64,000 bases of DNA from Acidobacteriota bacterium (GTDB taxonomy: Bacteria > Acidobacteriota > Vicinamibacteria > Vicinamibacterales > SCN-69-37), in NCBI GenBank assembly GCA_020853395.1, contig JADYYY010000019.1, forward strand, positions 310,001 to 374,000, given 5' to 3'. Made by a program: the position numbers and the translations under genes. Below the pieces are notes generated by a model, which saw nothing but the letters and a program-made list of their open reading frames with translations, did not search any database and was not told the DNA's origin. Each line of letters begins with the position of its first letter. Position 1 is the first letter of the stretch. Of the stretch, positions 61,640 through 63,725 are shown in pieces.

Positions 61640-62523
61640 CACAGCACGATCTTGTTGAGCGGGTACTCGACGATGCCCTGCGCGTTGGCGGCCTTGAGGC
61701 GCGGCATCAGCTCGCGGACGGTCCGCTCTTCGATCACCGTGTTCACCGCGACCCAGCCGTCCTCGCTGAGCGGCGAGATGGTCGGCCGCTGCAAGGCGGG
61801 CAGCAGGCCCAGCACCGTGGGCAGGTCCTCGCGCCGCACGTTGAGCATCAGGCCCACGCGGCCGTGCGCCTCGATCGCGGCCCGCAGCAGCAGCGCGATG
61901 TTGTCGATCTTCGTCCGCTTGGCCGCGTGCGCGAGCGCCTGGGCATTGGCGATGAGCTGCGTGTTCGACTCCAGCACCGTGTCGATGATCCGCAGCCGGT
62001 TCGCGCGGAGCGACGAGCCGGTCTCCGTCACCTCGACGATCGCGTCGGCGAGCACCGGCGGCTTGACCTCGGTCGCGCCCCACGAGAACTCCACGTTCAC
62101 GCCGACGCCCTGCCGCCGGAAGTAGGCCTCGGTGGCGCGGACGAGCTCGGTCGCGATCGTCTTGCCGTCGAGGTCCTTCGGCGTCCGGTACGGCGAGTCT
62201 TCCGGCACGGCGAGCACCCACTTCACCCGCCCGAAGCTCTGCTTCGCATAGACGAGGTCCGCCACCGGCACCACGGTGTCGCGGCCGGTGGCCGCCGCGT
62301 GCTCGGCGATCCAGTCCAGGCCGGTCAGGCCCGCGTCGATGACGCCGTCGCCCACGTAGCGGGCCATCTCCTGCGCGCGAATCAGCAGGCACTCGATCTC
62401 GGGATCGTCGATCGTCGGATAGTACGACCGCGAGTTGACGTAGATGTTGAAGCCCGCGCGCGCGAAGAGCTGGATGGTCGCGTCCTGCAGCGAGCCCTTG
62501 GGCAGGCCGAGCTTAAGCGTCAT
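61639..62523 (-). CDS. hisG: HisG: ATP phosphoribosyltransferase, long form
   Basis: 294 residues, so the long form with a C-terminal ACT-like regulatory domain (about 215-294) that binds histidine for feedback inhibition; no HisZ is then needed. N-terminal [18 protein letters not shown] and the PRPP motif [13 protein letters not shown] are present. It catalyses the first step of the pathway. It overlaps hisI by 11 bases. Confidence 0.96.
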
Positions 62524-62845
62524 TGGCGTTCTCGCGCGAGAGCGGCGTGTAGAAGCAACTGCGCGCGCCCGTGTGGCACACGACGCCGTCGCCGAGCCGG
62601 CGCACCTTCACCAGCACCGTGTCGTCGTCGCAGTCCGTGAACAGCTCGACGACCTCGAGGCGGTTGCCCGACGTCTCGCCCTTCGTCCAGAGCTTCTGGC
62701 GCGATCGAGAGTAGAACGTGGCGAAGCCGGTCAGACGCGTGCGCCGCAGCGCCTCGTCGTTCATGAACCCCACCATGAGGACCTCGAGCGAGTCGACGTC
62801 CTGAATCACCGCGGGCACGAGCCCGTCGAGCTTCGAGAAATCCAT
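62513..62845 (-). CDS. hisI: HisI: phosphoribosyl-AMP cyclohydrolase
   Basis: 110 residues, the cyclohydrolase only, with no HisE fusion. Key motifs are [41 protein letters not shown] and the zinc-binding [11 protein letters not shown]. It is the first structural gene of the operon, about 95 bases after the leader ORF. A separate hisE must exist elsewhere. Confidence 0.96.
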
Positions 62846-62872
62846 ACCGGAACATCCTTGGCCGGCGGAAAT

Positions 62873-62908
62873 GGCGGGGAAGATCAGGGACCCGCCAGAA
62901 CCGGCGGG
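62873..62908 (-). promoter_or_regulatory. Mutually exclusive hairpins in the his leader RNA
   Basis: The segment at 62891-62896 can pair with 62903-62908 (loop 6) or with 62873-62878 (loop 12), because both partners are GGCGGG on the plus strand. The two structures exclude each other, as expected for an attenuator between the His-rich leader ORF and hisI. No T-run follows, so the mechanism may be translational or Rho-linked. Confidence 0.5.
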
Positions 62909-62940
62909 CTGCTAAGCAATCGAGCGAGGTCGAATCGTCG

Positions 62941-63012
62941 CTACGCGCAGCTCCACCGTCCGGTCGTCCGACCGTGGTGATGGTGGAGATGGACATGGAG
63001 GAACCGCGACAT
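62941..63012 (-). CDS. hisL: His-rich leader peptide of the his operon
   Basis: 23 codons starting ATG at 63012. The peptide is MSRFLHVHLHHHHGRTTGR followed by WSCA and TAG: six His within eight residues (6-13). Such a run directly upstream of hisI is the hallmark of a his operon leader, where stalling at His codons senses charged tRNA-His. It has no Shine-Dalgarno, and the promoter predicts transcription starting 1-3 bases before the ATG. The ORF overlaps no other gene; the HAD gene ends at 63027. Confidence 0.8.
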   Translation of the reverse strand: MSRFLHVHLHHHHGRTTGRWSCA

Positions 63013-63020
63013 TGCCGTCG

Positions 63021-63049
63021 ATGCTATCACAGCGCCGCCGGCCTCCCAA
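63021..63049 (-). promoter_or_regulatory. Promoter of the his operon leader
   Basis: On the minus strand TTGGGA (63049-63044) and TAGCAT (63026-63021) are 17 bases apart. The -35 and spacer lie inside the end of the HAD gene. Expected transcription start is about 63014, two bases from the leader ATG. Confidence 0.5.
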
Positions 63050-63725
63050 GCTCTGCCACGAGCGCCGGCGTCACGTCGCGCAGCGCCGCGACCACGCGGT
63101 CGGCGTGGAGCACGGCGTGCACCGGCGCCGTGGTCGTCACCGCGATCGTGCGCATGCCCGCGGCGGTCGCCGATGCCAGGCCGGCGGGCGAGTCCTCGAT
63201 CGCGACGCAGGCCGACGCCGGCACGCCGAGCTTCGCAGCGGCCGCGAGGTACGGCTCAGGCGATGGCTTCGACGCCGCGACGTCGTCGGCGGCAACGATG
63301 ACGGGAATGAGATCGGCCAGCCCGCCGGTGCGCAGGATGGCCACGATCTCGTGATGGAGCGCTCCCGACGCGATGGCGAGCCGATACGCGCCCGCGAGCT
63401 GTTGCACCGCGGTGCGGGCGCCGGGATAGAGGATGTCGGTCGACGCGAGGTGGCGGCCGAATGCCTGCGCCTTCGCCGCGAGGATGGCCTCGATCCGAGC
63501 CGGCGCCACGACGAGGTCGCGATCGGCCAGATAGGCGAGCACCAGGCCGCGATCGTCGAAGCCGATGTACCGGTCGAAGTACTCGGCGTCGCCGATCGTC
63601 CAGCCGTGCGCGGCGAACACCTCCTGGAACGCGCCGAGATGGAGGCGTTCGGAGTCGGCGATCACGCCGTCGAAATCGAGCACGACGGCGGTGACGCGCT
63701 GAGACGAGGAATCCGGTGGCGGCAC
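63027..63725 (-). CDS. HAD-superfamily phosphatase/phosphoglucomutase-like protein
   Basis: 232 residues from GTG. Motif I is VVLDFDGVIADSE, with the nucleophile and acid-base Asp; motif II is IASGALHHE, and motifs III/IV are KPSPEPYLAAAAKLGV and CVAIEDSPAGLASATAAGM. The cap is of the beta-phosphoglucomutase/Gph type. It dephosphorylates or isomerises a small sugar phosphate; a role as the missing histidinol phosphatase is possible but this subclass is not typical. It lies 11 bases after argF. Confidence 0.88.
   Translation of the reverse strand: MPPPDSSSQRVTAVVLDFDGVIADSERLHLGAFQEVFAAHGWTIGDAEYFDRYIGFDDRGLVLAYLADRDLVVAPARIEAILAAKAQAFGRHLASTDILYPGARTAVQQLAGAYRLAIASGALHHEIVAILRTGGLADLIPVIVAADDVAASKPSPEPYLAAAAKLGVPASACVAIEDSPAGLASATAAGMRTIAVTTTAPVHAVLHADRVVAALRDVTPALVAELGRPAAL

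Follow-up and report, generated by a model that had tools for sequence, protein, structure and literature searches.

A his operon preceded by a histidine-rich leader ORF

The window, a 64,000-nucleotide stretch of contig JADYYY010000019.1 from a member of the order Vicinamibacterales (Acidobacteriota), carries on its minus strand a histidine biosynthesis operon in the order hisI-G-D-C-B-H-F-A. Pfam matches identify hisI (phosphoribosyl-AMP cyclohydrolase, 62513–62845) as the first gene, followed between 62523 and 57427 by hisG, hisD, an aminotransferase (hisC), hisB, a glutamine amidotransferase (hisH) and a His_biosynth protein (hisF), and a hisA-like frame comes next below 57427. The hisI start at 62845 is preceded by the Shine-Dalgarno sequence AAGGA (62855–62859). 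The region upstream holds a HAD hydrolase, along with the end of a gene for ornithine carbamoyltransferase.

The his operon lies directly downstream of a minus-strand ORF of 23 codons (ATG at 63012 to TAG at 62941) that encodes MSRFLHVHLHHHHGRTTGRWSCA and ends 95 nt before hisI. Its run HVHLHHHH (62974–62997) holds six His in eight codons. Across 400 kb of the same contig, read in six frames, this leader is the only one of 8,517 open stretches with at least six His in eight codons; five in eight occur in five other frames, all inside stretches of 197–857 codons. The 23-codon His-rich ORF that the first-pass annotation had placed upstream of hisI is thus confirmed, with a run unique in 400 kb. 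The leader matches no family in Rfam, Pfam or NCBIfam, and the Rfam His_leader model (RF00514) gave no relevant match in the window and 20 relatives, even at E 1–5.

A conserved promoter close to the leader start codon

The −35 element TTGGGA (63044–63049) and the −10 element TAGCAT (63021–63026), both on the minus strand, are separated by 17 nt, just as had been described from the window alone. A TGA precedes the −10 element, as in promoters of the extended −10 type, and the element ends 8 nt ahead of the leader ATG. Comparison with relatives shows the layout to be conserved: most have a TTGACA-like −35 element, of which the window copy is a degenerate form, followed by TAnnnT at a spacing that is usually 17–18 nt, and the distance from the end of the −10 element to the leader start codon is 7–11 nt in 96 of 105 cases, with a peak at 9. 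Genomes of family f23 have the same arrangement. A Shine-Dalgarno sequence below −5 kcal/mol precedes 5% of leaders, as against 47% of hisI genes, and is absent in the remaining 95% of leaders. Leaderless genes have been recognized by a TANNNT motif about 10–12 nt before the start codon and make up an estimated 13% of the genes of three Acidobacteria genomes (PMC3160421); the leader, with its −10 element about 10 nt from the start codon and no Shine-Dalgarno sequence, agrees with this description. As the conserved sigma-70 promoter sits about 9 nt before a start codon that lacks a Shine-Dalgarno sequence, the leader mRNA is predicted to be leaderless, with a window transcript start at about 63013–63015 as judged from promoter spacing.

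The leader is conserved across the order

The gene hisI is present in 118 of 149 related genomes, and we read the upstream regions of 110 loci. Four genomes of one genus (g2 of family f1; G001, G005, G011 and G013) contain neither hisI nor hisD; two of them are about 100% complete, and they may be histidine auxotrophs.

A His-rich ORF occurs at the same place in 105 of the 110 hisI loci of the order Vicinamibacterales, with a length of 20–32 codons and a median of six His. The five loci that have no such ORF comprise three of family f9, one of f3 and one at a contig end. Beyond the order, nine genomes sampled in family f23 carry the leader ahead of hisI, as do two further loci of the phylum, and the named records that have it include a Bryobacterales MAG; a sample of 28 genomes from the phylum's other families showed no leader near hisI. 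This is the comparison of upstream regions that the first-pass annotation had asked for, naming as its counter-case relatives that keep hisI with neither the ORF nor compensatory changes. Nearly all relatives that keep hisI show the ORF, together with complementary segments. In family f9, L039, L047 and L054 retain hisI and have no detectable His-rich leader; the control may have disappeared from these loci or been replaced.

At the codon level, the four closest genomes show only synonymous variation at His codons 6, 8, 10 and 11, while codon 13 is invariant and codon 12 is Val in one genome. The codons next to the His codons vary. Codons 19 and 22–24, at the antiterminator end of the leader, are again invariant.

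Leader tail and terminator arm are complementary

We scored a terminator as a GC hairpin between the leader stop codon and hisI with at least five T in the next 9 nt. By this rule, a canonical U-tract terminator stands behind 106 of 111 leaders, the five exceptions being the window (L002), L003, L005, L006 and L078. Three minus-strand segments of the window correspond to the switch. Segment 2 (62947–62958) comprises the last leader codons, CGGTGGAGCTGC, and forms the antiterminator strand; segment 3 (62902–62912, GCAGCCCGCCG) is the 5′ arm of hairpin A and can pair with either segment 2 or segment 4; and segment 4 (62891–62897, TGGCGGG) is the 3′ arm of hairpin A, which is the terminator hairpin in relatives and has no U-tract after it in the window. 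Two mutually exclusive pairings are therefore present, the antiterminator 2:3 and the hairpin 3:4. The window helix between the end of the leader ORF (62958–62947) and 62912–62902 has an energy of −22.3 kcal/mol; it is a more important pairing than those listed in the first-pass annotation, which had missed it.

Pairing of segments 2 and 3 was examined by duplex folding with partner swaps. In 100 relatives, the leader tail and its own terminator 5′ arm form a duplex at a mean of −22.5 kcal/mol, compared with −19.6 kcal/mol for arms taken from other families (Wilcoxon p ~1e-9), and leader tails compared with shuffled tails give a mean z of −1.7. The gain over swapped partners comes mostly from certain families (f2, f4); others (f6), whose arms resemble those of other families, show none. 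The helix sequence itself differs by family, being GGUGGAGCUGC with GCAGCCCGCC in the window and GGACUGGUGAUGGCCUGC with GCAGCCUCGCUGGUCC in L058. A stop-anchored comparison of segments 2 and 3 in a fixed register failed, since the register varies, and was abandoned. RNAalifold within families shows the terminator and not the antiterminator, because the spacer varies.

Measured from the first His codon of the run, the antiterminator helix starts a median of 36 nt further downstream, and it stops short of the ORF end by a median of 6 nt. Given the usual footprint of a ribosome, the helix would be accessible while a ribosome is stalled on the run and would be covered by a ribosome that stands at the stop codon. 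The window also has a hairpin option inside the ORF, CUCCACC (62988–62982) with GGUGGAG (62957–62951), which could hold segment 2 if the leader were untranslated. In 21 of 100 relatives (L010, L011, L014, L023, L107 and others), hisI starts within 20 nt of the terminator stem, immediately behind the U-tract and lacking any visible Shine-Dalgarno sequence.

Four genomes keep the switch and lack the U-tract

The window and its relatives L003, L005 and L006 keep the leader, segments 2 and 3 and the hairpin 3:4, with segments 2, 3 and 4 nearly invariant, and all four lack the U-tract. The bases after the window hairpin, TCCCTGATCT, contain no T-run, as had been stated from the window alone, and these four genomes fall outside a narrow definition of transcription attenuators that calls for an intrinsic terminator with a U-tract. 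As nearly all relatives have a T-run terminator, the missing U-tract is a derived trait of these four genomes. No further relative without it turned up when 162 genomes of the order were searched at the DNA level. Outside this clade, the leader of L078 (G048, family f5) also has no U-tract terminator, and a GGCGG there can pair with a downstream CCGCC; this is possibly an independent loss.

The first-pass annotation had proposed that 62891–62896 can pair with either of two partners. Both exist, GGCGGG (62896–62891) being complementary to CCCGCC at 62908–62903 upstream and at 62878–62873 downstream, but the downstream pairing does not exceed chance in the window (p = 0.45 against shuffled downstream sequence). 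The same comparison gives p = 0.007 for L005, 0.002 for L006 and 0.17 for L003. Folding places the downstream partner in segment 5 (62872–62878, CCCGCCA), and segment 6 (62861–62865, CCGGC) is a weakly indicated alternative partner of segment 3. We rejected a long hairpin combining 3:6 and 4:5 as the key structure of the window copy because it does not exceed chance there. A 4:5 pairing is possible in all four sequences, with a C-G to U-A double change in L006 and an extra base in the arm of L005, and when segment 2 is masked the refolded 4:5 form is more stable than the hairpin 3:4 in all four. With the hairpin 3:4 forced, bases of the Shine-Dalgarno region pair with post-hairpin bases in L005 (GUCCUU:AAGGAC) and L006 (UUGUC:GACAA); no such pairing was seen in the window or L003.

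The loss of the U-tract stands beside a scarcity of such tracts in the genome. We compared 400 kb of contig C19 of the window species (G000; L232–L251) with stretches of relatives (L252–L271), taking gene ends from a simple ORF and GC3 rule and counting five U in seven as a U-rich tract. In the window species, 4 of the 176 predicted operon ends have such a tract, as do 4 of 68 in G007 and 14 of the 89 from two relatives whose attenuators have U-tracts; the window species differs from the latter two at Fisher p 9e-5. The related count of a hairpin plus U-tract at the ends gives 1/181, 3/68, 3/45 and 6/48. This scarcity is partly a matter of composition, because GC content differs (70% versus 64%). 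Runs of at least five T or A are likewise scarce in the window species at 70% GC in comparison with relatives of 64% GC. The window species may rely little on U-tract terminators, and, with Rho present, a U-independent way of ending transcription is plausible in its lineage.

A probable histidine attenuator with a derived output in one clade

The conserved leader and promoter, the U-tract terminators, the segments that remain complementary across families of different sequence, and the his operon downstream together indicate that the element controls the his operon by ribosome-mediated attenuation in response to histidine, a reading to which we assign a probability of about 0.88. Transcription would start no more than a few bases from the leader ATG, as promoter spacing suggests, and the leader would be read without a Shine-Dalgarno sequence. 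When His-tRNA is scarce, the ribosome would stall on the His run, leaving segment 2 free to pair with segment 3, so that no hairpin 3:4 could form and the operon would be expressed. When His-tRNA is plentiful, a ribosome expected at the stop codon would cover segment 2, the hairpin 3:4 would form, and expression would be predicted to fall. The suggestion, first made from the window alone, that the logic of his attenuation extends to this phylum is supported by the leader (105/110), the terminator (106/111) and the pairing of tail and arm (p ~1e-9). That the leader is instead a small functional protein, for instance a metal-binding poly-His peptide, is very improbable. Poly-His peptides can bind metal, which would suit such a role. 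A leader peptide that acts in trans is known from trpL of Sinorhizobium meliloti (PMC7298713). Against this reading, more than 100 genomes keep the position, the promoter, the terminator and the ORF-tail pairing along with hisI.

As far as sequence comparison can tell, the sensor is well supported and the output in the window's clade is a derived variant. The likeliest of the readings considered is that the hairpin 3:4 there continues to end transcription, acting as a terminator that is U-poor or assisted by Rho. Because U-tracts are scarce and Rho is present, we lean slightly toward an output at the transcription level in this clade, a tentative call that falls just short of even odds. A conversion to translational control through the Shine-Dalgarno sequence of hisI is a more doubtful alternative. 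By such a scheme, with histidine present, the hairpin 3:4 would leave post-hairpin bases free to pair with the Shine-Dalgarno sequence, while upon stalling 2:3 would form, segment 4 would pair with segment 5, and the anti-Shine-Dalgarno bases would be looped, freeing the site. Attenuators that sequester a ribosome-binding site are known (PMC9413887), hisI has a Shine-Dalgarno sequence to act on, and the 4:5 pairing is kept in all four sequences through the double change and exceeds chance in L005 and L006, the two in which the forced folds sequester the site. The window and L003 lack both the sequestering fold and a 4:5 region beyond chance, and the greater stability of the 4:5 form with segment 2 masked, seen in all four, blurs the switch. 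Outright loss of control, with the leader a relic and hisI constitutive, is less probable still: the U-tract is gone in all four genomes and the −35 element is degenerate, but the His codons are kept by synonymous change amid varying neighbours and segments 2, 3 and 4 have hardly changed. A bolder reading, to which we give somewhat less than even odds, is that a leaderless his transcription attenuator has been remodelled in one lineage to work with no intrinsic terminator, keeping sensor and switch while the output acts on hisI translation or through U-independent termination, beside a genome-wide scarcity of U-tract terminators.

Comparison with known leader systems

Descriptions of histidine leaders come from Proteobacteria and from some Firmicutes (PMC9413887, PMC2965389), PMC4833913 cites a search for such leaders in Actinobacteria, and in a 2010 survey almost no predicted attenuator of Acidobacteria had an assigned function (PMC2965389). 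We found no earlier report of this element in Acidobacteria in the open-licence literature, where absence is not proof, and as far as that literature goes the histidine attenuator is new for the phylum Acidobacteriota. The present set adds more than 100 examples of his leaders from Acidobacteria and a further case of probably leaderless regulatory ORFs. Because some of these genomes have the U-tract and others do not, they also form a natural series for following how an attenuator functions or changes its output as intrinsic terminators grow rare in a high-GC lineage.

The enterobacterial hisL attenuator (Rfam His_leader, RF00514) shares the leader ORF with a His run, the mutually exclusive hairpins and the downstream his operon. 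The element described here differs from it in having no Rfam match, hisI as first gene, an antiterminator strand inside the last leader codons and a predicted leaderless start, and the window copy differs further in lacking the U-tract. The His-leader attenuators of Firmicutes (Bacillus cereus group, Peptostreptococcaceae, Erysipelotrichales) likewise combine a short His-rich leader peptide with a terminator and an antiterminator (PMC9413887, PMC2965389), in another phylum. Leaderless regulatory ORFs upstream of amino-acid operons have parallels in the mycobacterial polycysteine short ORFs (Canestrari 2020, as cited in PMC13236596) and in S. meliloti trpL, where a regulatory leader ORF stands at the 5′ end of the transcript with an amino-acid operon downstream (PMC7298713); these concern other amino acids and phyla, and the start of the present leader is placed by promoter spacing. 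Finally, translational attenuators that sequester the ribosome-binding site (PMC9413887) need no intrinsic terminator, which fits the missing U-tract of the window, although folding supports sequestration of the Shine-Dalgarno sequence in only two of the four U-less sequences.
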